From contig JAIDCJ010000009.1 in the NCBI GenBank assembly GCA_029055875.1, forward strand, positions 93,235-157,234: a DNA stretch of 64,000 nucleotides, given 5' to 3'. The notes below the pieces were generated by a model. It searched no databases. It was not told where the DNA came from and was given only the letters and a program-made list of their open reading frames with translations. Positions 47,738 through 62,251 of this stretch are shown piece by piece. The stretch comes from Clostridia bacterium. GTDB taxonomy: Bacteria; Bacillota; Clostridia; Christensenellales; Borkfalkiaceae. Made by a program: the position numbers and the translations under genes. Every line of letters begins with the position of its first letter. The stretch's first letter is position 1.

Positions 47738-48061
47738 ATGAAATTAATACGCAGAAATTTTATAGACTGGAAAAAGACGGGCAGAAATTTGCAGCTGCTT
47801 CGGGAAGACAATATCGAGCTTAGACGCGCGGTGTGCAATGCGCTCAAACACGATAAAGGCGATTGCAGCGGCGAATGCGGCGCGTGCAGATTTGAAATGG
47901 ATAACCATATCAGCCGCAAAGAGCTTGCCGACGTGTTCGGCGTGTCGGAAAGCGTTATCTTTAACTGGGAAAACGGAAGAACGGCGGTGGCGTTAGAAGA
48001 CGTGCTTTTTTATGCCGAGATATCCAAGAAAGAGCTATCGGATATCATCGTCTATATGTAA
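47738..48061 (+). CDS. XRE-type helix-turn-helix protein with a cysteine-rich insert
   Basis: 107 residues. The C-terminal part is an XRE/Cro-type DNA-binding domain (RKELADVFGVSESVIFNWENGRTAVALEDVLFYAEISKKELSDI). The expected first helix seems to be GRNLQLLRED at residues 15-24. Between it and the second helix there is an extra segment of about 33 residues with Cys33, Cys43, Cys47 and Cys50 (CSGECGAC, spacing C-x3-C-x2-C). That layout could hold a metal ion or Fe-S cluster, though this is inference. It follows the V-ATPase operon with no visible terminator between, and a strong terminator follows it. Its target genes are unknown. Confidence 0.7.
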   Translation: MKLIRRNFIDWKKTGRNLQLLREDNIELRRAVCNALKHDKGDCSGECGACRFEMDNHISRKELADVFGVSESVIFNWENGRTAVALEDVLFYAEISKKELSDIIVYM

Positions 48062-48103
48062 AAGGGCGCCAAGTAGCGAATAAACCGAAAAACTCAGATT
48101 TCA

Positions 48104-48140
48104 AAAGGAACTTGTAAAATTTACAAGTTCCTTTTTTCTT
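48104..48140 (+). terminator. Terminator after the XRE-type gene
   Basis: Near-perfect dyad AAAGGAACTTGTAAA / TTTACAAGTTCCTTT followed by TTTCTT. It ends transcription from the V-ATPase side before the accessory cluster. Confidence 0.92.
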
Positions 48141-48176: not shown

Positions 48177-48205
48177 TTGTCGAGGCGTGTCGGGTATTGT
48201 ATAAT
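48177..48205 (+). promoter_or_regulatory. Promoter of the accessory cluster
   Basis: TTGTCG, 17 bp, TATAAT (48200-48205). Followed by AAAGGAGATAACGCAT and the ATG at 48235. Confidence 0.7.
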
Positions 48206-48234: not shown

Positions 48235-49854
48235 ATGTTAAATGCAACGTTTGAATTATTTATGTCGGAATACTTTTTGACGAAAGCAGTTCTCGGCAAG
48301 TATCTGGAAAACAGCGGGGAGCTTTTTCGGGCATTGGGGAAAATCTTTTTGATCCCGAACGGAGAGATCGAGAGATTATACCGTTTGTCCGAAAATGAAA
48401 CGGCAAAGGCGATTACCACCGAAAAAGAGTTTATGCAACATCAGAGGCTGCAAAAATACTCTATGCTCATAGGCTCGGCGAAGTCGTCCAATGCCGAATG
48501 GGAAGAGGTCGCCCGTATCAAAGGCAATGCAATTTTAACCGCGCAAAGCCGCAATTTGATTTTGGATGCGGACGCATCGAGGAACGTGGTTTATACCTGT
48601 CTTTCTTCGGCGGCAACCTGCGGCGTAATAAGTGCCATAAGGATTATGGGTATTTTACAATGCGAAGGGATTTTCCTGAGTAAGAACGAAACCGTTGGCA
48701 TGAAAACCCTGTCCAAGGCGGCGGACTGGAACGATAGCGTCAGTACGCTTGCTCTGTTGCATTATTGTAAAGCTACGCGTGAGTTTAATATGGCGCGTCT
48801 TCGTCAACAGGTTGCAAATACTCCGTTTGATGAGCTGTATCAAACTGCCGCCGCGGAATACGGCGAGGCGGATGCGGAGGAAATAGACGAGGTCAAGCTC
48901 TTGGATAAATCGTTTCATGCAGGCGTCCTGAAACGTGAAACTTACGATCCTAAGTACGCCAGAATCCTGTACAGTTTTGCGCTTTATTTCAAAGATAAAG
49001 AGAAAGCAGTATTTACGTTGAACAAGGAGCAGCTCTGTGCCATAAGCGATTTGCCTTTGAAGCTATCGCATGAAAGAATGTCGGCGGTAGATGCAAGCGG
49101 CGTGCAGAAGGTAACGGTGAAAAGAGAAGCGGAAATTTCTACGGTAACCCGTGCGCTGAAAAACTGTGATTTAAGAGGGCTTTCCTCTTACCGCCCGATG
49201 TGCCTTTGCTGCGAGTCGAAATACGTGTTGAATATGTATGCCAAGGCAATCGGAGCGAAAAATCCCGATACGCATATCGAAAGAATATACGTTGCGGAAT
49301 TAGAGGATTACGATCTTGAACCGACGCAGAACAACGTTTTCGTGCGCAGTATCGACGAAGACAGAGACAACCGTTTTCTGTTATTCTTCTACGGTGAAAT
49401 TTCGGAAAGAAAAAAGGATGCGGTAAAGAGCATTTTACAAAGTTTTCGCCGTGCGAAGTTCCACTTAAACAGCCCCAGCGTAACCCTCAATTTAAGCGCG
49501 GTATTGCCCGTATGTTTCTGCGACGAGCAAAATGCAAAATGGCTGAAACCCTACTGCGATGAAATACAGCTGAGCGGGGTTTCGCCCGACGAGATGCCCT
49601 TCGTCATTAAGAACATTCTTGCGGGCAAGCAAAAGCTTTACGGGGTGGGGGCAATCGATTTGATTGGCGATACAAAGGATGTGTTCAGCGGCTATGACGT
49701 TGACACGGCGGAACTGCTCATTGACGCGGCGGTACGCGCACGCAGAGAAAAGGGCGCAGTGATTACCTTATCGAGGGAAATGCTGCAGGAATATGCAGGT
49801 GATAGCGACAAACTGACGATAGGTTTCGGAGGTAGTACGTATGCAAGATACTAA
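48235..49854 (+). CDS. Sel1-repeat protein with degenerate AAA+ (Lon-like) C-terminus
   Basis: 539 residues, not matched to a named family. The middle region has a Sel1-type repeat (MGILQCEGIFLSKNETVGMKTLSKAA, then STLALLHYC). From about residue 310 the order of elements resembles an AAA+ domain: a P-loop position without GxxGxGK (RPMCLCCESKYVLNMYAKAIG), a Walker B-like strand (NNVFVRSIDEDRDNRFLLFF), and a sensor/lid stretch (FCDEQNAKWLKPYCDEIQLSGVSPDEMPFVIKNIL) that recalls Lon. It therefore looks like an ATPase fold that has lost nucleotide binding. It starts after GGAG and overlaps the VirD4-type ATPase gene by 14 nt, so the two products probably act together. The AAA+ call is inference. 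Confidence 0.6.
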   Translation: MLNATFELFMSEYFLTKAVLGKYLENSGELFRALGKIFLIPNGEIERLYRLSENETAKAITTEKEFMQHQRLQKYSMLIGSAKSSNAEWEEVARIKGNAILTAQSRNLILDADASRNVVYTCLSSAATCGVISAIRIMGILQCEGIFLSKNETVGMKTLSKAADWNDSVSTLALLHYCKATREFNMARLRQQVANTPFDELYQTAAAEYGEADAEEIDEVKLLDKSFHAGVLKRETYDPKYARILYSFALYFKDKEKAVFTLNKEQLCAISDLPLKLSHERMSAVDASGVQKVTVKREAEISTVTRALKNCDLRGLSSYRPMCLCCESKYVLNMYAKAIGAKNPDTHIERIYVAELEDYDLEPTQNNVFVRSIDEDRDNRFLLFFYGEISERKKDAVKSILQSFRRAKFHLNSPSVTLNLSAVLPVCFCDEQNAKWLKPYCDEIQLSGVSPDEMPFVIKNILAGKQKLYGVGAIDLIGDTKDVFSGYDVDTAELLIDAAVRARREKGAVITLSREMLQEYAGDSDKLTIGFGGSTYARY

Positions 49855-51520
49855 CAAGATTCTAACCGGATATGAAAACACGAGGTACGTTCACTATGCG
49901 GATTTATCGGAACTTCCGAATACGGTGGCATATGCCGAACTCGGGAAGAGGGCACCGTCGGGCGTTTTGAAGGCTTGCCGGCAGGTAGACGGAAAACTCG
50001 TACAAACCTATACGGGGCAGGAGAACCACGTAGGGGTTATTGCGGCAACGAGGCTCGGGAAAACGACCTCGTACGTTGTACCTACCATTCTCTCGTTCGC
50101 CCAACAGCCGATGAAGAGGAGCATGATTATTTCCGATCCGAAGGGCGAGATTTATCGCCTCACGTCCGAAACGCTCCGAGGGGCGGGGTATCGGGTGGTA
50201 CTGCTGAATTTCCGTGATTACGTTCACTCGGAGTGTTGGAATCCGCTTACCCCGATTTTCCGCAAATACCGTAAGGCGGCTCAGATATACGACGAAGTCG
50301 GCGTTGTTGATACCGATAACGGGCCGCGCAACGTCTTCCGTGAAATCGTCTACGACGACGAGAAAGAACTGGAACAGGCAATCGCACTCGCCAAGGCAAT
50401 GCTGACGGACGAGGTCGGAAACGATATCGATACGTTGGCGGCAATGCTTATGCCCACCCAAAATACGAAAGACCCTTATTGGGAAGACAGCGCGCGTGAG
50501 CTTCTGAAAGCCTTTCTGTGGGCAATGCTCGAAGATTCGGATAAGGAGGATAACCCCATAACGGAGGATACCTTCTCGTTCAGTACGATTCTCAGATTGC
50601 AGACGACAATTCACTCGGGCAAAAACATGAGCTTTGAAGACGGCGGATATTTTACGGAGCGGGGTGCGGATTCCCGCGCGTATCAGCTGGCTAAGAATAC
50701 GGTCATTGAAAACGGCGACGTAACGAGCGCCTGCATTCTGGCGGTTTTCAATACGGGGATATCGGTTTTCCGTGATTGCGCAATGCGCCTTGTAACAAGC
50801 TGTAATTCGTTTGATTTTTCGGCGTTTGACGAGGGCCCTGTGGCAATTTATATTGACTACCGCGACGAGGTAAAGGTGCATTACCAAATTATTTCGCTGT
50901 TTATTCAGGACGCATACCGCTATCTGATTGAGCAAGCGACCAAGAAGGCGAACGGAAAACTTGAAGTGCCGTTCTACTTCATTCTCGATGAGTTCGGGAA
51001 TTTCCCCGCCATTAAGGATTTTGAAACGACGATCTCGGCCTGTGCAGGGAGAAATATTTGGTTCATATTAATTATTCAGTCCTACGCACAGCTTAACAGC
51101 GTTTACGGAGAGAACGTCGCCGAAATCATCAGGGATAATCTCAATATGCATATTTTCTTCGGCTCGAATAATCCCGATACGCTGGAATCCTTCTCGCGCG
51201 AGTGCGGTCAGCAAACGCGTATTTCTCCGCTCAGCGCATTGAACGGGCAAGGGGCGGATATCGATACGTACCAAATTGAAACGATCCCGCTCGTGCCCAA
51301 GAGCATGCTGTCGCATTTTCAGCCCGGTGAATGCATTATTACCGAGGCGAACAGCGGATACGTTATGTTTTCCAAACTTGAAAGGTATTATCTTTGCGAC
51401 GAGTTCAAAAACTTAAAGCTCGCTTCCGAGAAGGAATACAAGTGCAGCGTAAATCCCTTTGAAAAACGTTATACCTACACGGTGTCGGCCAAGAAAAAAC
51501 ACAGTCTGTTTGACTTTTAA
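49841..51520 (+). CDS. Orphan VirD4/TraG-type ATPase (coupling-protein family)
   Basis: 559 residues. Walker A is AATRLGKT at 68-75, where coupling proteins usually have GPTRSGKG/T; the following VVPTILSF and SMIISDPKGE match the family. Walker B is FILDEFGNFP at about 379-388, and the conserved IIQSYAQLNSVYG (sensor) follows. Coupling proteins feed DNA or protein into type IV secretion systems as hexamers. This one has no N-terminal membrane helices, and no relaxase, VirB4 or other conjugation gene is in the window, so its role may differ from conjugation. Its start overlaps the upstream gene by 14 nt, and an acidic winged-helix protein follows after 18 nt. Confidence 0.85.
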   Translation: MQDTNKILTGYENTRYVHYADLSELPNTVAYAELGKRAPSGVLKACRQVDGKLVQTYTGQENHVGVIAATRLGKTTSYVVPTILSFAQQPMKRSMIISDPKGEIYRLTSETLRGAGYRVVLLNFRDYVHSECWNPLTPIFRKYRKAAQIYDEVGVVDTDNGPRNVFREIVYDDEKELEQAIALAKAMLTDEVGNDIDTLAAMLMPTQNTKDPYWEDSARELLKAFLWAMLEDSDKEDNPITEDTFSFSTILRLQTTIHSGKNMSFEDGGYFTERGADSRAYQLAKNTVIENGDVTSACILAVFNTGISVFRDCAMRLVTSCNSFDFSAFDEGPVAIYIDYRDEVKVHYQIISLFIQDAYRYLIEQATKKANGKLEVPFYFILDEFGNFPAIKDFETTISACAGRNIWFILIIQSYAQLNSVYGENVAEIIRDNLNMHIFFGSNNPDTLESFSRECGQQTRISPLSALNGQGADIDTYQIETIPLVPKSMLSHFQPGECIITEANSGYVMFSKLERYYLCDEFKNLKLASEKEYKCSVNPFEKRYTYTVSAKKKHSLFDF

Positions 51521-51538
51521 GCGCATAGGAGGAGCAAC

Positions 51539-52255
51539 GTGAATAAGACGGAAATCATTGAATATATCAAGAAAAAACAGTTTGCGGAAACCGCCGACCT
51601 GCAAAAGAAATTCGGCATTTCGTACAAAGAAGCCAAATCCATCATTGCGGAGTTAGTCTCCAACGAGGACTTGGTGTTTTCCGGCGGGGTAAGATACGAC
51701 TTTGTCGGCAGGAATAAATTTCTGCGGGAAGAACGCAGAGCAGAGCTCGAACGCCGCAGGGAAGAGCTTATAAGGCGTATTCAAGCCGAAACGGAAGAAG
51801 ACGAGGAAGACGACGACTTGGACGTAGAAACTGAGCACAAAATCGAGGATTACCTAAAATATTTGGAGCATCAGTCCGAGGAGGACGACGGAAGCGAAGA
51901 TACGGAATATGATAATATCATAAATCTTATGCTTCACTCGGATGAGGACGGAGATAAAATCACCCGCAGAGGGCAACCGCCGATTGCCGTTGATGCAATC
52001 CCCGTGCATTCGTTCTGGGACGATGAAGAGGAGTTCGCCCAAGCCGTAATAGAGCGTATCGAATGCCTTGTGAAATCCGATATGAAGATGGGAAGGCAGG
52101 GGGCAGTCAAGAAAGCGGAAGCGTATCTCGAAGCCGTAAGGGACACCAACGACAGAAAGAAGATACAAGTGTACGAACGGCTTGTTTACGAGCTGAAAAA
52201 CACGAGCTCGTATCTTTACGGGAGACTGAAAAAGCAGTTCTGTGAGGCATGGTGA
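51539..52255 (+). CDS. Acidic winged-helix protein (FtsK-gamma-like N-terminus)
   Basis: 238 residues, GTG start after AGGAGG. Residues ~1-58 resemble a winged helix, with the helix pair TADLQKKFGISYKEAKSIIAELVSNE similar in layout to the gamma domain of FtsK. A Lys/Arg/Glu-rich helix follows, then a very acidic stretch (EEDEEDDDLDVETE) and a conserved-looking C-terminal helical domain (AVIERIECLVKSDMKMGRQGAVKKAEA). It is the third gene of the cluster, after a VirD4/TraG-type motor, so a DNA-guiding partner is a reasonable guess. I do not recognise the full-length family. Confidence 0.6.
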   Translation: MNKTEIIEYIKKKQFAETADLQKKFGISYKEAKSIIAELVSNEDLVFSGGVRYDFVGRNKFLREERRAELERRREELIRRIQAETEEDEEDDDLDVETEHKIEDYLKYLEHQSEEDDGSEDTEYDNIINLMLHSDEDGDKITRRGQPPIAVDAIPVHSFWDDEEEFAQAVIERIECLVKSDMKMGRQGAVKKAEAYLEAVRDTNDRKKIQVYERLVYELKNTSSYLYGRLKKQFCEAW

Positions 52256-52297: not shown

Positions 52298-52732
52298 ATG
52301 AAGACGGAAAAGATATTTTCATCGGAAATGAATCGGGTATTAGAAAAGGCAGAAGAATTAGCGCGGATGTTCAAAACTCATTATATCGCTTCGGAACATA
52401 TCGTGTATGCGATGCTGAGTACGAACTGTCTGGCAGGAAAAGTCCTGAAATCCTGCGGGTTGACTTCGCACGCCTACTCTCAATATTTCATGCGGACGTT
52501 AGATAGAAACGCCGAGATCAACGGCCTCACGCCAAAGACGAAACTTTTGATTGAAGAAGCAAAGCAAATTGCGTCAGACTTTGACGGCGGGGATGCGGAC
52601 ACGGGGAGCGAACATCTGCTCTTGGCAATCGTTTCTTCTAAAGATTGTTTGGCAACGCAAATTTTGGAGTCCATGGGCGTTGATATTTCAAGGTTAGAGA
52701 CCGCGTTGGAACTGGTCTTAGGGATTCAATGA
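52298..52732 (+). CDS. Free-standing Clp N-terminal domain protein
   Basis: 144 residues made of the two Clp-N repeats found at the front of ClpA/ClpC: FSSEMNRVLEKAEELARMFKTHYIASEHIVYAML and LLIEEAKQIASDF...TGSEHLLLAIVSSKDCLATQILESMG. No ATPase domain follows. Such single domains (ClpS/ClpN-like) can bind adaptors or substrates of Clp proteases, or act as decoys. It has its own extended -10 promoter and GGAGG. A metallophosphatase gene follows 13 nt later, so the two are co-transcribed. Confidence 0.85.
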   Translation: MKTEKIFSSEMNRVLEKAEELARMFKTHYIASEHIVYAMLSTNCLAGKVLKSCGLTSHAYSQYFMRTLDRNAEINGLTPKTKLLIEEAKQIASDFDGGDADTGSEHLLLAIVSSKDCLATQILESMGVDISRLETALELVLGIQ

Positions 52733-52745
52733 CAAGGAGGGAAAT

Positions 52746-53444
52746 ATGATTTACGTAACGGGCGATACGCACGGTTTGGAAGACGCGTATAAATTGCATA
52801 TTTTTGCGGGAGAGCACCCAAAGCTCACCCGAAACGACTACGTTATTATTGCGGGGGATTTCGGTGCGATATGGAGCGAGCGAACCTTAGCCGAGAATTT
52901 AAGGTATTATACCGAACTCCCTTTTACCGTATTATTCGTGGACGGGAATCATGAAAATTTCGACCTAATCAATTCATATCCCGTAGAAATTTGGAACGGC
53001 GGCAAGGTACATAGAATCAGACCCAACGTGCTCCATTTAATGCGCGGACAGATTTTTGAAATCGAAGGTAAAACGATATTCACGTTCGGCGGTGCAACCA
53101 GTATCGATCGGCACTATCGTGTAGAGGGCAGGAGCTGGTGGCCGCAGGAGCTACCTTCGTTTGAAGAATTGGACGAGGGGCTTGCGAATCTGAAAAAGTA
53201 TGGGAATAAGGTAGACTATATTATTACGCACGCCTGTGGACAGCGTGCGTTGGCGTATCCGAAATTGAGGGCGCAAGCGGGCATAAAAATCGAATGCCCC
53301 GAATGCCAGCTTTTATCGAACTTTGAAGACGTCGTAGAGTTCAAGCACTGGTATTTCGGTCATTTCCATATTGATTTGCGGTTGAGCGACAAATACACGG
53401 TATTGATGCACAAAATAGTCAAATTGGGTGAACACGGTGAATAA
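52746..53444 (+). CDS. Calcineurin-like metallophosphoesterase
   Basis: 232 residues with the full set of metal-ligand motifs in order: GDTHG (6-10), GDFGA (about 37-41), GNHENFD (about 66-72), THACG (about 159) and GHFHID (about 201-206). These give the two-metal phosphoesterase site. It could hydrolyse a phosphomonoester or phosphodiester; substrate unknown. GGAGG precedes the ATG. Its 3' end overlaps the next small gene. It lies between a Clp-N protein and an HAD phosphatase, in a cluster rich in phosphate chemistry. Confidence 0.88.
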   Translation: MIYVTGDTHGLEDAYKLHIFAGEHPKLTRNDYVIIAGDFGAIWSERTLAENLRYYTELPFTVLFVDGNHENFDLINSYPVEIWNGGKVHRIRPNVLHLMRGQIFEIEGKTIFTFGGATSIDRHYRVEGRSWWPQELPSFEELDEGLANLKKYGNKVDYIITHACGQRALAYPKLRAQAGIKIECPECQLLSNFEDVVEFKHWYFGHFHIDLRLSDKYTVLMHKIVKLGEHGE

Positions 53445-53859
53445 GGAAAAACTGAAACAAATCAAAGAAATTCTGAAAGAAGAATATCAAGACAAAATGT
53501 CCGATGCAGCAATCGATTCCTTTGCCAAACAGCTGTATCATTCTCTTTTCGTGGGGCAATACGAGCTTGAAGATATTCCCGCAACTATATTCGATTGCGA
53601 GTCCGAAGAGGGGGTTGAAGGCGGCGACTGGTGTTATCTGTTCAGTCAGTTGATTGACCTTTTGGATAATAACGAAACAACCGCAAAACGGCTTTACAGA
53701 AGCTTTATGGAAGAGTTCGATTTGCCCGATACGTTCTTAAAGCTCGTCAACGAGAACGGGGAATATTTAAGCGCGGAAGAGTTAGCCGAAGTAAAAGAAA
53801 AAGCGGTTAGACTGTTTGGCCGCCAAATATTAGAAAACTGTTGGATCGACGAAGATTAA
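53437..53859 (+). CDS. Small acidic protein of unknown function
   Basis: 140 residues from the GTG at 53437 (MNKEKLKQIKEIL); the track's GTG at 53428 is three codons longer and lacks a ribosome binding site. The protein is acidic and helical, with no membrane segment, no cysteine cluster and no motif I recognise (core FAKQLYHSLFVGQYELEDIP, later GGDWCYLFSQLIDLLDNN). It overlaps the phosphatase gene upstream by 8 nt and is followed 21 nt later by the HAD gene, so it belongs to that operon. Probably real because of coupling and normal codon use. Confidence 0.7.
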   Translation: MNKEKLKQIKEILKEEYQDKMSDAAIDSFAKQLYHSLFVGQYELEDIPATIFDCESEEGVEGGDWCYLFSQLIDLLDNNETTAKRLYRSFMEEFDLPDTFLKLVNENGEYLSAEELAEVKEKAVRLFGRQILENCWIDED

Positions 53860-53880: not shown

Positions 53881-54357
53881 ATGAAAATCATATTTCTCGA
53901 TATCGACGGAGTGTTAAATTCCAAGGCATACGATAGAAAACGGAATTGGAACGAGCAAACGGATATAGACGAAACGAGGCTACCGTACGTAAAGGAAATC
54001 GTCGATGCCACAAATGCGAAAATCGTGTTGAGCTCCACTTGGCGGCGGCACTGGAATGCGGATTCAAAGCTCTGCGATGCGGACGGCAGGTATATCAACG
54101 AAACCTTTGCAAAGTTCGGACTATCCGTTTACGGTAAAACGCCTGAGCTCGGCATTCACGCGTTAAGAAGAGATGAAATCGTCAAGTGGCTGCAGGAAGC
54201 TGAAGAGGGGGTTGAATCGTTTGTGATAATCGACGACTACCGCTACGGATGGGGCGAGCTGTCGCAGTACTTTGTAAAGACTGATCCCGTCTTCCGTCTG
54301 GGGATTGAAAAAGAGGGAGTACAGCAAGCAATCGATATTTTGAATAAAACCAAGTAA
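53881..54357 (+). CDS. HAD phosphatase of the 'Swiss army knife' RNA-repair-associated type
   Basis: 158 residues. HAD motif I is FLDIDGVLN (nucleophile Asp7, acid Asp9), motif II is IVLSSTWRRHWN, and motif IV is FVIIDDYRY. This arrangement, with STWR after motif II, is that of the HAD domain found in or beside bacterial RNA-repair (Pnkp/Hen1-linked) proteins. Free-standing members are common and their substrate is not settled; 3'- or 5'-phosphate removal from nucleic acid is possible. GGGGAAAGGA precedes the ATG. Last gene of the cluster, with a terminator just after. Confidence 0.8.
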   Translation: MKIIFLDIDGVLNSKAYDRKRNWNEQTDIDETRLPYVKEIVDATNAKIVLSSTWRRHWNADSKLCDADGRYINETFAKFGLSVYGKTPELGIHALRRDEIVKWLQEAEEGVESFVIIDDYRYGWGELSQYFVKTDPVFRLGIEKEGVQQAIDILNKTK

Positions 54358-54378: not shown

Positions 54379-54422
54379 CACAGCCTTATTCGGTAACCGA
54401 ATAGGGCTGTGAGCGTTTTGTT
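54379..54422 (+). terminator. Terminator after the accessory cluster
   Basis: Long stem CACAGCC-TTATTCGG / CCGAATA-GGGCTGTG with a TAA loop, followed by AGCGTTTTGTT. The T-run is moderate. Confidence 0.8.
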
Positions 54423-54760: not shown

Positions 54761-57700
54761 ATGAGACACAATCAGGACAAGATTCAAAAGACTGAAAGCG
54801 GTTGTCTAAGGTCTATGAAGTTGGTACGAATCATACTGGCTGTTTTCTTCATGCTCTTTATAGGCGCGGCAATATTCTGCGGTGCATTTTTATTCAAGTC
54901 GGATAAGGGGAACGAGCCGGTGCACGCACTCACGGGCGATGGTTCGCAAGGCAATCCGTATAAAATTTCCACGCCGGAAGACTTAACGTCTTTAGCGAGC
55001 AACGTAAATGCGGGAACTACGTATAAGGATAAATACTTTGAGATGGAGAACGATATTGACCTGAAGGGCAAAATATGGGTTCCCATCGGCAGTACTGCAC
55101 CCAGTGGCTATGGCAAAAACTTCCAGGGACATTTTGACGGGAAGAATCACACCATTTATAATATGAACGTCACCCAAACGGCTAGCTACAAGGGCTTGTT
55201 TGGCTGCGCCTATAACGCCACGTTTGAAAACGTGACGATTGAAAATCCCGTATTTGCTACTACGGCAGGTGCGCTGGCGGGCGGCGAATATACCGGCGCA
55301 ATCGTCGGACGCCTCGTGCTGGCAAGCGTAAGCAAGGTTGATTACAATTCCTACGTAAAAAATTGCCACTTAAAAAACGGTCAATTGTTATCATCGGGCA
55401 GCTACGTGGGCGGTTTGGTCGGCCGCGTGACCGCTCCCAGCGGCAACACTTTCAAAATGGAAAACTGCACCGTAACGGGCGGTGTGATAAAAGGCAACAA
55501 CTACGTGGGCGGTTTGATTGGCTATCTCGACGGCGCGAAGGCGGGGGATCTCGGCAAGAAAGACGCCCAAGCTACAATCATTGAAAACTGCACCGTAAAA
55601 GGCTCGGGAACGAACAAAGTGCCCACCTACATATTTGGGGCTTCAAGCAACGTCGGCGGAATTATCGGTTACGCTACGAGTACGGCATATACGATAGACG
55701 CAGGCGGTACCGAGAGGGCAGGCGTATACGTTTCAAAATGCGCGTCCACGGCTACGGTTGTGGCAAAGTCGGATTCTGCCGGCGGAATTTGCGGATATGC
55801 AGCCGGTGTGAAAATAGACCAGTGCTATAACACGGGCGCTGTAAGCAATATATTAGGAAACTATACCGGCGGAATTTGCGGTATCATTATGACTGCGGCA
55901 GTCAGAGTAGAGAACTGCCTCTCCATGGGAGATGTTTCTGCTAGTAACCACTCTACCGCTGGTGCGCAAGCGGGCGGTATCGCCGGCGACGTAAAAATTG
56001 CCGGTAGCAGCATTGAAAAATGCGTGGTCACGGGAAATATTTTGGCAAGCCCTTCCAGTAGCGGTAACGGCTGGGCGGGCGGTATCGTCGGACTGGGTGA
56101 AACATCCGTCGCGGTTGGCGGATGCGTCGTTGCCTCCGAGCATATTTCGGGGCAAACCAGTAGCTCGGGGGCTTCACTCTCTTCGCCTTTCGTATGCGCT
56201 AACAACGTTACCGCTACAGTTCTTCCTACAACGATTAAGGATTTGGACGTAAATCTGAATAATAACCGTTCACCCATAGATGCACCCTATAACTATTATA
56301 ATGCAGATATGATTTTGGGCGCACGCAAAGCAAACTCGGCAACGGGAAATTACCCCGCATGGGCAAGTAACGTTTCGGGCGTGCCGGTCAGTCTGAGCGA
56401 GATGACGACTACTCGTTCCATCTACGACCATCTGAAATGGGATTTTACCAGCGGTGTCCGCGTCTGGAATCATTCGTCAAGCCAGAACGAAGGTATTCCT
56501 TATCTGGATTCTTTAGGAGAGCCCGAGAAGCCTTACGGACATAAGACCAACCCCATTGAAATTCAAACGGCAGCGGACTTTTATGATCTCCGCACGAAAG
56601 TAAACGCAAGCGCGGCAGCCGATAGATATCTCTACGCGGCTCAATACTTAAAACAGACTGCCGATTTAGATTTGTCTGCCATGACGGAGGCGAATATCAT
56701 CGGAAGTACCAATGAATACTCGTTCAGAGGGAATTACGACGGCGGCAACCACAGATTGCTCAACGTGGATTTCACAACCAAGAAGGGGAATACCGCTATC
56801 TTCGGCGTTGTTCTAAATGCGTCTTTCAGAAACGTCGTTGTGGAAAGCCCTAAGGTTTTCGTTACGGGAAAAGTAAGCAACGTCGGCATTCTGGTTGCTC
56901 TGGCATATAACAATCTCTATATGGAAAACTGCGCCATCATCGGCGGTCAGTTAATTGCACAGCAGGCTACGAACGTCGGTGCGCTCTGCGCAAACGATAC
57001 AGCGGGCGGCAACCACTTTATCAGGTGCTTCTCGTCCGCCTCGGTCGACGGCGGAACAAACGTGGGCGGCCTCGTCGGCAATGCGTTCGGCACGCGTATT
57101 GAGCGGTGCTATACCTCGGGCAACGTAAAATCTACCACGCTTACCGGTGTTAACTTATACGTGGGCGGCTTGGTCGGGCAAATGTCGCATGCTACAAATA
57201 CTGCCTATCTCCTCTACGAATACGATTACACGAAAAGCGAAAACGATCCTAAGGGTTCCACTATTAAGGATAATAGCGGATGCACGGTTGTCGGCTCCAC
57301 CATTAAGGATAGTTATGCGAAATGTGACGTTACGGTAAGTCTTTCAGGTAACTACAACATTACCGCGGGCGGTATCCTCGGTTATGCGTACGGAAAAACC
57401 ACAGTTTCAAACTGTTATTTCAACGGCAACCTCTCGGCAACTGCAACCGGAGGAAGTGCAGCCAATACCAGCGGTGCGTTTGCGGGCGGCATTATCGGTA
57501 TGTCCTTCTACGGGGACGTCGCTATCGATCATTGCTTAAGCGCCATTCAAAAAGTAACCGCTTCCTCAACCCGCGGTTACCTCGGCGTCGGCTATTTCAA
57601 TACGTATTATATTCCGTTCGTCAGTAGCGGCACCGCTGCGGCGCCCGTGAAACCGCACGAAAGCGAGGACAGTTACTATATTGAGGTGTCTATGCCTTCC

Positions 57701-60700
57701 GTATCCAATGCGGCGGGAATCAACACCGGAACTAAGATAACGCTCAACAAAGCGGACGACGGCAACGGACTGTTAGCCGTAACGGACGGTTCCGTGTTTA
57801 AGGCGGATGCACTCGGCTGGAATATGTCAACCGTTTGGGAGCGCAGTAATGCGGTAAACGACGGCTTCCCGATGTTAAAGGGACTTATTATCGACTCTAT
57901 CGAGCTCGTGCAGGTACTCAACAGAGCGCAGGAGTATCAGGCATCCGATTGGAGCGAAGAAACCTTCGGCCATCTTCAGGACCTCATTACGGCTGCAAGA
58001 GAGGAGATGGTCAAGAACACCCTTACGAATGCAAGTCAAGAGGAATACATCACCGATATCAACAACGCCATCGATAGCCTCCGTGCAGATAAGAAAGATC
58101 TGAAAAACTATTACGATATCGTGATTCGGGAAATCGCGCCGAATGCGGACTTCTACACGAATTACAGCATGGTCGACAGCGTTATGAAAAGCGCGCAGAC
58201 CATCGTAGAGGATAACACCAGCAGATACCGCAACGGCGACGTGAAAACCATTTACGATGCGTTGGTGCTGGCTGTCAACAGTCTGCGGGTAGATAAAACC
58301 GAACTCAATAAAGCAGTCGAGCAGGCGAACGCAATCATGCTCAAGCCCGATTCTTATCTTGCGGCGGACGTGCTTGCGCTGAAAAACGTGCTCGACAAAG
58401 CCGTTGAGGTAAACAATAACCCGTCCGCTTCCGTCGACGACGTAATCGCCGCAACGAAAGCCATGCAGGCGGCTCTCGAAAAAATGAAGCTCGATAAATC
58501 GAAGCTGATCGATGCAATTATCGGTGCGTACAATAGCATCGGCGTGAAAGCAGAATATATCGAACTTTCCTCGACCTTTAAGCTCAACGAAGAGGACAGG
58601 CTTGATTCTAAGAAGCTTGAAAACTACGATGCGTTTGAAAAGGCGTTAAATGCGGCGGTAGCCGTTACCAAAAAAGCGGACGCCACCTCGAAGGAAATTT
58701 CAACCGCCGTGTTCAATCTGAACGTCGCGCTCAACGATTTGGCACTCAATAAAAAAACTTTGCAAAATCTTTGCTCAGAAGCGGCGTCGTCCTTGCTCAA
58801 CGAATCGTACTACACGAAATCTAGCGTAGAGGCGTTGAAAACTGCGTATGCTGCGGCACAAACGGAACTCAAACTCTCCGTCACGAAGGACAATTTGATC
58901 GAGCGTTCCGAAGCGCTTGATAAAGCAACGCAGGATTTGGATAGTGCCATCAGCGCGCTCGGGCTCGATAAATCCGAATTGGAGCAGTTGCTCAAATGGA
59001 CAGAGGATGAACTCAAAGAGGATATCTACACGGGTGATTCGTTAAAAGCACTTCAGAATGCGTACGATAACGGTAAAAAGGTATTTGACAGCACGTCCGC
59101 TACACAGGAAGACATCCGCAACGCCGTTACCGCTCTGGACGACGCCATTCAAAACCTCACAATCAACCTCGCACACTTGAAGAGTTTAATTGACGAGGCT
59201 ACGGCTATTCTGGATAACGATAATTCCAAGCTGTATTCAAACTTAGACGCTTTGCAAGACGCAAGAGACAAGGCACAACCCGTTTACAACGACTATAATG
59301 GTGGACAAAGTAGCGAAGAGAACACCGTAAAAATCCAGAAGGTTAAAAATGCAACCAAAGCATTGCAGACGGCGCTCGATAATCTTTCGGTTAGCACCAA
59401 GGAATTGAACGACTACGTCACTTGGGGTACGTCTCAAACCAATCAGAATTACGTAAACGATATCGTTTATACGCCGGAGAGCGCAAAGGCATTCAGAGAT
59501 GCGGCGCAGGAGGTAAAGGATAAGGGCGTCCTCATGCTCACGAAGGAGGAGGTAATTACCTATACCCTCAAACTCAGAGCGCTGTACAATGCATTAAAAC
59601 CCAATAAAGATGCGCTTACCAAGCTCGTTGCCGAAGTCAACGTCATGACGAATACGAAGTATCGTCAGGATAACGACGGCAAGTGGATTTTAGACGACGA
59701 CGGCAACATGAAGGTGTTCGTCATTTACAGTCAGGATACGTGGGACAAGCTTCAAGACGAATTGAAGAAGGCGAACGACGTTATTCTTGATAATGACGCA
59801 ACGGTGGACGAAGTTACCGAGGCACGCACGAACCTGATTGCCGCCCGCGATAAACTCGTCGTAGATACCTCCGAGCTTGAGGAGAGAATGAAGAAAGCCG
59901 AAGGGCTTCTTGCTCAGACGGATATTTATACTGCAACGTCGTTAACTGCGCTTCAAACCGCTTACGACGAGGCGGACAAACTTCTTAAGGGCTCAGGACT
60001 TACGTTAGAGTCCGTACAGGAGAAGCTGGACGCTCTCCTTGCGGCAATCAACGGCTTGAAAGCGGATCTTACTGCCTTGCAAAACCGTATCAATGAAGGC
60101 AATAATTTGTTGAAACAATACGGGGCTTATTATAGCACGGCTTCCGCCAACAAGCTTCAAAGCGTCATCGATCAGGCTACCGAGCTTATCAAGACGGATC
60201 TTGATACGGGCAGCGTTACGCTTCTCGTCAATTTAATCAACTCGGCAATCGACGGTCTCGTAATCGTTACGGACGGGCTGAAAGATCTCATTAAAGACTT
60301 TAACGCCTTGGAAAAAGATTTTATTACCGACGCAACCTATAACGCGGCAAAAACGGCAGCAGATGCCGCAAGAAATCTTTTGAAGGGCACAATCAAAGTT
60401 GACGAGTATGCAAGTGCGTTTACGGCTTTGAAATCTGCGCTGAACGGTATTAAGCCGGATATGGCGAAGTACAAAGCGTTTATTGCAGAATGCGAAAAGG
60501 AAACCAAGCGTTCTTGCACGGATGAGAGCAAAGCGGCGCTTCAAGCAGTCATTGATAGCGCGAAAGAGATTTCTACCGATACCGATAGCACTTACGACGA
60601 CGTCATTGCATCCGTTCACGCGCTGCAAGCTGCGGTAGACGCGCTTGTACCGACAAAAGACGGCTTGGCAGACCTTATTAAAGCGACGCAGGAATATTTG

Positions 60701-62251
60701 TCAACCGCCGTTCCCGAACTCGGTGATAACGTAACGTACGCCGACTGCTTCACGGAAGACAGCTACGCAGTGCTGAATGCCGCGCTTCAAAAGGGTATCA
60801 AAATCAACGATGCGGGCGACGCGTCGTTAGACGAAGTGGAAGATGCGATGGCAGCCATCACCAATGCAAAGGATGCGCTCGTTCTGGATAGGTCTTTGTT
60901 GCAGTATTTAATTAAAGAGTGCGATGAAAACTACGGCGCGGATTATGCGGATTATTTTGAAGTATCGAGCTACATGGCGTTCACAACGCAGCTTACTGCC
61001 AGCAAAACGGTAGTAGCCAAAGCGAATCTTACCATTGATGAATACGCTAAATCCTATGAGGCATTGCTTAACGCAAGAAACGCGCTTGAATTCGATACTA
61101 GCGCGCTCGATAAGATTATCGCGCGTGCAGAGGAAAAGGTAACGGAACAGCAGACGTCGCTGAAATATTCCGCTGCATCCTTCAAAACGCTTACCGATAA
61201 TTTGCAAACTGCAAAAACCTATCGTGATAACACGAATAGGGATCCTTCCCAATCTAATGGAGTATGCAGTAACCTGTTAGCGGCAATCAGCGGTCTCGTT
61301 GATATCAGCAAGCTTGATCCTGCTATTTCAACGGTTCAGGCGTTTGTAAACAAGGGCAACAATATTTCAAACGGTCATTATTATTCAAGCGGCTCGTTCA
61401 AAGCGCTTCAGGATTTGTTGGCTCGTGCAATCGCGCTTAAAACCGGTAATCCCACACAAAGCGAAGTCGATTACGTAGTTGACAAGTTAACCAACTATGA
61501 AGACGTATTGTTGGACGTCACCGACGACAAACAATACAGTATCGAACAGCATACCTTCATGGGTAGAGAAAAATATAAGTATACCGAGGCAAGCTGGGCG
61601 CCCTACGCCGAAGCCGTTGAAAAGTTTGACGAGCTGATTGAGCTTGCAAAACATGAGGTAACGCGTGAAGAGATTGCCGCGGCGAGAGCAGCCGTTAAAG
61701 CGGCCTATGATAATTTGAAGGAAGATCCCGATGCGACTTTGGGATTGTTCCAAGTGATTGAGAAAAACAAGACCTTCCAGTTTATCGATGGCGAGGGTAA
61801 TGCGGTTAACTTCGGCGAACACGTATACGATGCGAACAAACCTACTTATCTTACGAACATAGCCTTGGGTGACAGTATTTCGGACATCCTAGCGCAGTTC
61901 GTAAATGAGGGTATTAAGGTCTACGATTCAAAGGGCGTGGAAATTACCAACTTATCGCAGGTGATTGCTACCGGTATGGTGTTAGAGATTCTTGACGGTA
62001 ACACCGTAATTGACGCCATCACGCTTGTAATACGCGGAGATGTGGATGGCAACGGAGAAATCGACGTTTTCGATAAGGCACAGTTAAACGCTTATACGAA
62101 CGGTACGGTGTTAACTGGGGCATTCTTGATGGCGGCGGACGTAGACGGAAATGGTGAAATCGACGTTTTCGATAAGGCACAGTTAAACGCTTATACGAAC
62201 GGTAACGCGCCGATTTTTGCAGGATTAAGCGTAAAAGGAGCGGCAAACTAA
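54761..62251 (+). CDS. Secreted GLUG / FIVAR-repeat protein with C-terminal dockerin (2,496 aa)
   Basis: Starts after AGGAGG. Residues ~21-45 are a hydrophobic export helix. Residues ~58-1040 are beta-solenoid-like with many GLUG-type motifs (YVGGLVGRV, AGGICGYAAG, VGGLVGNAFG), in two blocks each opening with a variant of ITTAADLYDLRTKVNA...DIDLKG. Residues ~1046-2330 contain about 18 FIVAR-type three-helix repeats of 62-85 residues, a rod-like architecture often found in adhesins. A small beta domain (ALGDSISDILAQFVNEGIKVYD) precedes a canonical dockerin with two intact Ca2+ loops, GDVDGNGEIDVFDKAQ and ADVDGNGEIDVFDKAQ. No catalytic motif was seen. The stop overlaps the start of the next gene (TAATG), so the two are translationally coupled. 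Confidence 0.88.
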   Translation: MRHNQDKIQKTESGCLRSMKLVRIILAVFFMLFIGAAIFCGAFLFKSDKGNEPVHALTGDGSQGNPYKISTPEDLTSLASNVNAGTTYKDKYFEMENDIDLKGKIWVPIGSTAPSGYGKNFQGHFDGKNHTIYNMNVTQTASYKGLFGCAYNATFENVTIENPVFATTAGALAGGEYTGAIVGRLVLASVSKVDYNSYVKNCHLKNGQLLSSGSYVGGLVGRVTAPSGNTFKMENCTVTGGVIKGNNYVGGLIGYLDGAKAGDLGKKDAQATIIENCTVKGSGTNKVPTYIFGASSNVGGIIGYATSTAYTIDAGGTERAGVYVSKCASTATVVAKSDSAGGICGYAAGVKIDQCYNTGAVSNILGNYTGGICGIIMTAAVRVENCLSMGDVSASNHSTAGAQAGGIAGDVKIAGSSIEKCVVTGNILASPSSSGNGWAGGIVGLGETSVAVGGCVVASEHISGQTSSSGASLSSPFVCANNVTATVLPTTIKDLDVNLNNNRSPIDAPYNYYNADMILGARKANSATGNYPAWASNVSGVPVSLSEMTTTRSIYDHLKWDFTSGVRVWNHSSSQNEGIPYLDSLGEPEKPYGHKTNPIEIQTAADFYDLRTKVNASAAADRYLYAAQYLKQTADLDLSAMTEANIIGSTNEYSFRGNYDGGNHRLLNVDFTTKKGNTAIFGVVLNASFRNVVVESPKVFVTGKVSNVGILVALAYNNLYMENCAIIGGQLIAQQATNVGALCANDTAGGNHFIRCFSSASVDGGTNVGGLVGNAFGTRIERCYTSGNVKSTTLTGVNLYVGGLVGQMSHATNTAYLLYEYDYTKSENDPKGSTIKDNSGCTVVGSTIKDSYAKCDVTVSLSGNYNITAGGILGYAYGKTTVSNCYFNGNLSATATGGSAANTSGAFAGGIIGMSFYGDVAIDHCLSAIQKVTASSTRGYLGVGYFNTYYIPFVSSGTAAAPVKPHESEDSYYIEVSMPSVSNAAGINTGTKITLNKADDGNGLLAVTDGSVFKADALGWNMSTVWERSNAVNDGFPMLKGLIIDSIELVQVLNRAQEYQASDWSEETFGHLQDLITAAREEMVKNTLTNASQEEYITDINNAIDSLRADKKDLKNYYDIVIREIAPNADFYTNYSMVDSVMKSAQTIVEDNTSRYRNGDVKTIYDALVLAVNSLRVDKTELNKAVEQANAIMLKPDSYLAADVLALKNVLDKAVEVNNNPSASVDDVIAATKAMQAALEKMKLDKSKLIDAIIGAYNSIGVKAEYIELSSTFKLNEEDRLDSKKLENYDAFEKALNAAVAVTKKADATSKEISTAVFNLNVALNDLALNKKTLQNLCSEAASSLLNESYYTKSSVEALKTAYAAAQTELKLSVTKDNLIERSEALDKATQDLDSAISALGLDKSELEQLLKWTEDELKEDIYTGDSLKALQNAYDNGKKVFDSTSATQEDIRNAVTALDDAIQNLTINLAHLKSLIDEATAILDNDNSKLYSNLDALQDARDKAQPVYNDYNGGQSSEENTVKIQKVKNATKALQTALDNLSVSTKELNDYVTWGTSQTNQNYVNDIVYTPESAKAFRDAAQEVKDKGVLMLTKEEVITYTLKLRALYNALKPNKDALTKLVAEVNVMTNTKYRQDNDGKWILDDDGNMKVFVIYSQDTWDKLQDELKKANDVILDNDATVDEVTEARTNLIAARDKLVVDTSELEERMKKAEGLLAQTDIYTATSLTALQTAYDEADKLLKGSGLTLESVQEKLDALLAAINGLKADLTALQNRINEGNNLLKQYGAYYSTASANKLQSVIDQATELIKTDLDTGSVTLLVNLINSAIDGLVIVTDGLKDLIKDFNALEKDFITDATYNAAKTAADAARNLLKGTIKVDEYASAFTALKSALNGIKPDMAKYKAFIAECEKETKRSCTDESKAALQAVIDSAKEISTDTDSTYDDVIASVHALQAAVDALVPTKDGLADLIKATQEYLSTAVPELGDNVTYADCFTEDSYAVLNAALQKGIKINDAGDASLDEVEDAMAAITNAKDALVLDRSLLQYLIKECDENYGADYADYFEVSSYMAFTTQLTASKTVVAKANLTIDEYAKSYEALLNARNALEFDTSALDKIIARAEEKVTEQQTSLKYSAASFKTLTDNLQTAKTYRDNTNRDPSQSNGVCSNLLAAISGLVDISKLDPAISTVQAFVNKGNNISNGHYYSSGSFKALQDLLARAIALKTGNPTQSEVDYVVDKLTNYEDVLLDVTDDKQYSIEQHTFMGREKYKYTEASWAPYAEAVEKFDELIELAKHEVTREEIAAARAAVKAAYDNLKEDPDATLGLFQVIEKNKTFQFIDGEGNAVNFGEHVYDANKPTYLTNIALGDSISDILAQFVNEGIKVYDSKGVEITNLSQVIATGMVLEILDGNTVIDAITLVIRGDVDGNGEIDVFDKAQLNAYTNGTVLTGAFLMAADVDGNGEIDVFDKAQLNAYTNGNAPIFAGLSVKGAAN
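62057..62204 (+). repeat. Direct repeat encoding the two dockerin halves
   Basis: Two 49-bp segments (62057-62105 and 62156-62204), beginning GAAATCGACGTTTTCGATAA, are identical at DNA level and lie 99 bp apart in the same frame. Each encodes EIDVFDKAQLNAYTNG. The bases just outside differ at synonymous sites. Confidence 0.95.

Follow-up and report, generated by a model that had tools for sequence, protein, structure and literature searches.

A candidate ClpP-coupled protease built around a soluble VirD4-class ATPase in Clostridia

Gene content of the locus

We analysed a stretch of 64,000 nucleotides (nt) from the genome of a Clostridia bacterium (GenBank assembly GCA_029055875.1, contig JAIDCJ010000009.1, positions 93,235 to 157,234; hereafter the window). 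Seven co-directional genes, here named A to G, are flanked by a V-ATPase operon on one side and a large surface-protein gene on the other. Neighbours within this run overlap or sit less than 45 nt apart, and the start of B overlaps the end of A by 14 nt. The present work concerns the first three, which an earlier sequence-only reading of the window had described as a degenerate AAA+ partner (A), a soluble VirD4/TraG-type motor (B) and an FtsK-gamma-like protein (C), and for which we propose a connection to the peptidase ClpP. All three open reading frames (ORFs) were found as described, with the following features (window coordinates, strand):

48235..49854, +, gene A: 539 amino acids (aa), with a Sel1-like helical N-domain, a Lon-like pseudo-AAA+ domain and a disordered IGF tail (AlphaFold/Foldseek)
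49819..49833, +, IGFGG motif of A, residues 529-533, the proposed ClpP-docking plug
49841..51520, +, gene B: 559 aa, soluble VirD4/TraG-type ATPase, the proposed motor (PF02534, 1.3e-54)
50042..50065, +, Walker A of B, residues 68-75, invariant in the alignment
50978..51001, +, Walker B of B, residues 380-387, FILDEFGN, invariant in the alignment
51539..52255, +, gene C: 238 aa, GTG start, with an FtsK-gamma-like winged helix, an acidic linker and a C-terminal domain

The host genome is of the Clostridia type, with 1.6 Mb in 25 contigs, and the named relatives of the locus are metagenome-assembled genomes of Clostridia. The ratio of nonsynonymous to synonymous polymorphism (pN/pS, relative to locus L032) is 0.14 for B and 0.29 for A; A, B and C are real, intact genes under purifying selection.

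A VirD4-class ATPase without a membrane anchor

In addition to PF02534, B matches TraG-D_C (1.3e-25) and scores 247 bits against the NCBIfam CD1115 VirD4-like model, for which the cut-off is 250. The Walker A residues T70, G73 and K74 and the Walker B residues D383 and E384 are invariant among 32 homologues. We found no membrane-type hydrophobic segment, as the maximum 19-residue hydropathy is at most 1.7 in all orthologues, compared with 2.0-3.3 in conjugative VirD4s, and no relaxase or type IV secretion system (T4SS) genes were seen among the window genes scanned. Both results agree with the description of B as a motor lacking membrane helices and surrounding conjugation genes. A conjugative region with a membrane VirD4 and a VirB4-like ATPase is present in the same genome, on another contig (G000:C11).

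B shares 59-83% identity with most of its relatives, and a close relative occurs in 12 of the 61 genomes of the genus, a patchy distribution. Phylogenetic analysis of 69 sequences placed the window family on one side of a branch (95/84) nested in a soluble clade, with a second soluble clade of 12 members elsewhere in the tree and membrane VirD4s adjoining each, some of the deeper branches that join soluble groups being weak. No close relatives were found in plasmids or phages, in which the closest sequences are conjugative-type VirD4s of less than about 30% identity. The orthologues occupy mixed chromosomal neighbourhoods, and most flanks consist of ordinary chromosomal genes.

Short VirD4 genes such as those of L170-L182 were left out of the soluble group in our wider survey. 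They were rejected as soluble proteins because they are of the conjugative type, with the membrane part in a separate or frame-shifted ORF. In seven of them (L170, L173, L174, L176, L177, L178 and L182) the frame that encodes the membrane half stops at Walker A and a different frame encodes the remainder, an extra base being present at an identical place (GTTGGA-C-GGTTCTGG in L170). The pattern suggests a conserved, programmed +1 frameshift within Walker A.

A pseudo-AAA+ protein with an IGF tail

No Pfam family matches A. Its AlphaFold model (mean predicted local distance difference test score, 89) has an all-helical N-domain, in which we take the repeats to be Sel1-like, followed by an AAA+ fold. 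Foldseek matched the model to Lon AAA+ domains (E 2e-7), with Lon the closest structure in the PDB. Walker A is not conserved in an alignment of 31 homologues, and A lacks Walker motifs, which supports its earlier description as a dead AAA+ protein. The Ser-Lys protease domain of Lon is also absent, the C-terminal end being a disordered tail. Because A is catalytically dead, B is the only evident ATPase in the main family of loci. A diverges fast, being only about 36% conserved, with only 10 invariant residues overall. In the gene co-occurrence check suggested by the sequence-only reading, A precedes and adjoins B in 53 of the 55 loci with enough room, which exceeds chance. Genes other than A sit directly upstream of B and C in L126 and L128.

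ClpX docks on ClpP through Ile-Gly-Phe loops inserted into clefts of the barrel (PMC9035409; PMC12383707). The tail of A contains a near-invariant GFGG, which in the window reads ...DKLTIGFGGSTYARY (IGFGG), and G530 and F531 are among the 10 invariant residues. The tail is disordered in the AlphaFold model, so that the IGF-type motif for ClpP docking lies on a flexible and exposed segment of A. In other soluble VirD4 families the upstream gene encodes a different partner, whose last residues are exactly IGF (L069-L072, L074, L135, L136, L144 and L146) or which carries IGF close to its end (L141 and L164). As background we took 769 ORFs from these loci, of which one has an exact IGF end and seven carry such a motif within the last 12 residues, one of the seven being an A gene. 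Profile comparison linked the partners of the L069 and L146 types to the N-domain of A (about 1e-10) and not to its AAA+ domain; no homology to A was detectable by this method for the AAA-like partners (L074, L137, L141, L164 and others) or for the L136 and L144 partners.

Linkage to ClpP

A ClpP gene lies directly upstream of A in 31 of the 51 main-family loci with room for it, often overlapping the start of A. The assignment is clear (PF00574, 1.4e-60; the closest PDB chains are all ClpP), and the Ser-His-Asp catalytic triad is intact in all main-family operon ClpPs. These operon copies are additional to the housekeeping copy, and at least one ClpP was found in every one of the 40 genomes checked. 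The clade to which the window belongs has no operon ClpP, and the single ClpP gene of the window genome lies at G000:C18.

The linkage is found again, with the genes differently ordered, in the second soluble clade and among divergent relatives; it is present in two separate soluble VirD4 clades. ClpP is upstream in L137, L139, L142 and L166, and immediately downstream of B in L165, L183, L184, L243 and L244. None of the membrane VirD4s surveyed has an IGF-ended partner or a same-strand ClpP. The ClpP genes of L183 and L184 have Asn at the aligned position of the catalytic Asp, so that the triad reads S-H-N, possibly reflecting altered activity or an alignment shift.

Covariation of the tail and the docking pocket

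The residue that precedes GF in the tail of A differs with the presence of an operon ClpP. It is aliphatic in 0 and aromatic in 26 loci with an operon ClpP, versus 11 and 10 in loci without (Fisher 2e-5), a p-value that is overstated since related loci are not independent and that comes from a count in which four loci scored as lacking ClpP do have one (L062, L076, L119 and L131) and three share a genome with an operon ClpP (L054, L055 and L066).

The docking pocket is rebuilt in the operon ClpPs. The gate tyrosine of the docking pocket, Y63, controls the ClpP gate (PMC8182300). Position 63 is Tyr in 16 of 16 housekeeping ClpPs and Gln in 25 of 27 operon ClpPs; Leu114 is replaced by Thr in 23 of the 27, and position 112, mostly aromatic, becomes R, S, A or V in the operon copies (the E. 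coli-style numbering of 112 and 114 is our own). Altered pockets, with Tyr63 changed to Gln or Leu, pair with YGF, FGF or FGY tails, and canonical pockets pair with IGF.

Our first loci had suggested a simpler rule, namely that a locus has an IGF tail or a dedicated ClpP and never both. Further loci, from another order, were fetched later; they took no part in deriving the pairing of tail and pocket, and they fitted it. Three of them (L236, L237 and L240) have a ClpP with Leu63 and FGY tails, two (L241 and L242) have no ClpP and an IGF end, and in L243 and L244 ClpP abuts B. The simpler rule was broken by L239, which combines a dedicated ClpP with a canonical IGF tail; the ClpP of L239 has a canonical pocket, and the pocket comparison explains it. 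That plug and socket change together is hard to explain unless the two are in contact, and docking of the tail on ClpP is, as judged from these sequence comparisons, well supported.

An FtsK-gamma-like protein downstream of B

The winged helix of C falls below the curated cut-off of the FtsK_gamma profile (18.8 bits, E 0.0014; cut-off 30.6). The model of C aligns with E. coli FtsK-gamma (2j5p) with a template-modelling (TM) score of 0.71 by target and a root-mean-square deviation of 1.4 A, at an E value of only 0.06, and homologues of C match FtsK_gamma at 1e-20, far above the cut-off. The FtsK-gamma-like character claimed for C, sub-threshold in the protein itself, is supported by its structure model and its homologues. 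Some homologues have a full FtsK motor (1e-40) together with FtsK_gamma; C of the window has no motor domain. In the model of C, the acidic linker is of low confidence and the C-terminal domain is helical.

In 35 of 52 loci the gene right after B encodes a winged-helix protein. L142 (2e-9) and L139 (3e-7) have the C-terminal domain of C joined onto the end of B, on which basis we place C near B. In L070, an FtsK_gamma winged helix forms part of a cpYpsA/SLOG fusion protein (L070:12439-13224), whose neighbourhood also holds a C homologue with FtsK_gamma. The FtsK_gamma domain may be a shared recognition module; together with the FtsK motor of some homologues, the SLOG fusion suggests that the winged helix may recognize DNA or substrates, and a DNA-linked role of C is possible. 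One clade without the winged helix encodes a J-domain protein with Sel1-like repeats downstream of B (L037:11857-13518 and relatives).

Accessory genes and flanking features

The remaining features of the A-G unit and its upstream flank are listed below. The terminator-like and promoter-like sites come from a pattern scan, and their number in this region does not exceed the chance expectation.

47738..48061, +, XRE-type regulator with four cysteines (HTH_3, 5.6e-7)
48103..48135, +, terminator-like hairpin of 15 pairs between the XRE gene and A (pattern scan)
48177..48205, +, promoter-like site TTGTCG-17-TATAAT ahead of A (pattern scan)
52298..52732, +, gene D: stand-alone Clp N-domain protein (Clp_N, 3.1e-19)
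52746..53444, +, gene E: calcineurin-like phosphoesterase (PF00149, 1.8e-9)
53428..53859, +, gene F: small protein with no family match (family scan)
53881..54357, +, gene G: HAD_SAK_2 phosphatase-like protein (PF18143, 6.5e-26)
54379..54411, +, terminator-like hairpin of 15 pairs (8 GC) at the end of the A-G unit (pattern scan)

A homologue of the XRE regulator lies about 4 kb or less upstream of the module in 15 of 51 main-family loci. E recurs in seven other main-family loci, G in six other loci and F in one (L123), and D was not found in the other loci compared. D may be a substrate receptor. The window also contains two very large ORFs, at 6599-27874 (7091 aa) and 54761-62251 (2496 aa), the second of which ends in two dockerin-like GDVDGNGEIDVFDKAQLNAY repeats.

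Discussion

The sequence-only reading recognized a machine made of a soluble VirD4, a degenerate AAA+ protein and an FtsK-gamma-like protein, and this composition stands; it overlooked two features that suggest proteolysis, the linkage to ClpP and the docking tail with its IGF motif. We consider it likely that the locus encodes an ATP-dependent protease in which a VirD4-class motor acts with ClpP through an IGF-tailed pseudo-AAA+ adaptor, the ClpP of the window machine being the housekeeping copy. What the sequences establish for this proposal is the gene linkage, the tail motif, its covariation with the pocket, and the intact catalytic residues of the ATPase and of ClpP. From these we infer physical docking, a hexamer of B, unfolding by B, a role for C and a substrate. 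B, an ATPase of the VirD4 class that has lost the membrane anchor, would act as a hexameric motor. A would sit between motor and peptidase, and its C-terminal tail, flexible and bearing the IGF motif, would enter the hydrophobic clefts of ClpP in the manner of the ClpX loops, giving a flexible coupling of a six-fold motor to a seven-fold barrel. Proteins chosen for degradation would be threaded into ClpP by B. The most likely role of C is to choose substrates or to tether the machine to DNA, and D may add a receptor. The window machine would use the single housekeeping ClpP, consistent with its canonical IGF tail, whereas many relatives have a ClpP of their own for the machine, its docking pocket remodelled.

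Several observations weigh against this proposal. The window locus itself has no ClpP gene. Seven ClpP-linked loci (L137, L139, L142, L165, L166, L183 and L184) have no recognizable tail, and some soluble VirD4s (those of L140, L138 and L246, and the first one in each of L137 and L142) lack both a neighbouring ClpP and a partner with IGF. A is missing from two of the 55 loci (L126 and L128), which keep B and C. The non-independence of related loci tempers the covariation statistics, and the structure models are of single chains. The ATPase that unfolds T4SS substrates is listed as unknown (PMC6362355; PMC5826034).

In one rival explanation, B and the FtsK-like C would move on DNA while ClpP degrades the DNA-bound proteins they meet, serving to maintain the chromosome or to counter invading DNA. 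VirD4 and FtsK are members of the same superfamily of DNA motors, and both the C homologues with a full FtsK motor and the frequent position of the winged helix directly after B are in line with such tracking. Given that C of the window has no motor domain, that no DNA substrate can be named and that one clade has a nearby J-domain protein in place of the winged helix, we regard it as unlikely. It is less probable still that the IGF-tailed protein regulates or diverts ClpP, filling its clefts to block or open it, with B recycling or positioning that protein. ClpX and ClpC would face competition from any multivalent IGF ligand, as they do from the acyldepsipeptide ADEP (PMC8182300), and A is catalytically dead. 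However, dedicated ClpPs with remodelled pockets would be needless for regulating the housekeeping ClpP, and the conserved element is B, an intact ATPase.

The sequence-only reading had raised a defence role, and we think it improbable that the locus is an anti-phage or other conflict system acting by regulated proteolysis, despite its patchy occurrence in the genus, the fast divergence of A and occasional SLOG, NACHT-like, kinase/phosphatase or TIR-like neighbours (partly our own reading of the sequences). PADLOC gave no match for A and weak ones for B (25 bits to mad8) and C (11.7 bits to PsyrT). When 78 neighbour genes were scanned with PADLOC and Pfam, no defence family recurred, most flanks being ordinary chromosomal genes, and we rejected a defence island. 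We give almost no credence to a decayed remnant of a conjugative element, for which the homology of B to conjugative VirD4s speaks. The sequence-only reading had named ATPase orthologues inside complete integrative conjugative elements as the sign of decay; instead, they occupy chromosomal neighbourhoods, form separate clades and have no close plasmid or phage relatives. Purifying selection, invariant motor residues and the conserved A-B-ClpP/C arrangement likewise identify a conserved non-conjugative operon in many species.

The partner ATPases known for ClpP are AAA+ Clp/HSP100 proteins. The proposed protease would share with ClpXP, ClpAP and ClpCP a ClpP with an intact triad, an IGF-type plug and a ring ATPase expected to feed ClpP. 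It differs in that its only intact ATPase is VirD4-class rather than AAA+, in that a separate protein, the dead AAA+ A, bears the plug at its C-terminus, and in the dedicated ClpPs with a remodelled pocket. B has PF02534, TraG-D_C and both Walker motifs in common with VirD4/TraG coupling proteins of the CD1115 family, but it lacks a membrane anchor, a relaxase and a T4SS, falls in separate clades and is linked to ClpP. Similarly, the AAA+ fold of A is closest to Lon, from which A differs by the loss of the Walker motifs and the protease domain. The winged helix of C, and the full motor with gamma of some homologues, recall FtsK, whereas here there is no division-type membrane domain and the operon includes VirD4 and ClpP.

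An anchor-less VirD4 motor appears to have been recruited to ClpP at least twice in gut Clostridia, and we found no earlier description of VirD4 with ClpP in the open-access literature searched. On balance, and with somewhat less assurance than for the protease itself, we favour the view that these loci represent a new class of energy-dependent, self-compartmentalized protease, with a non-AAA+ unfolding ring of the VirD4/FtsK superfamily, at least two origins from coupling proteins and co-evolved ClpP docking. If this is true, a VirD4-class motor at ClpP would widen the range of drivers of regulated proteolysis, and VirD4 ATPases would be able to unfold proteins. The locus would then offer a soluble, easily purified system for asking which T4SS ATPase unfolds substrates. 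The operon ClpPs with Y63Q are changed where ADEP antibiotics bind, which predicts an altered ADEP response, and they also predict an orthogonal docking pair that could possibly be used as a tool.

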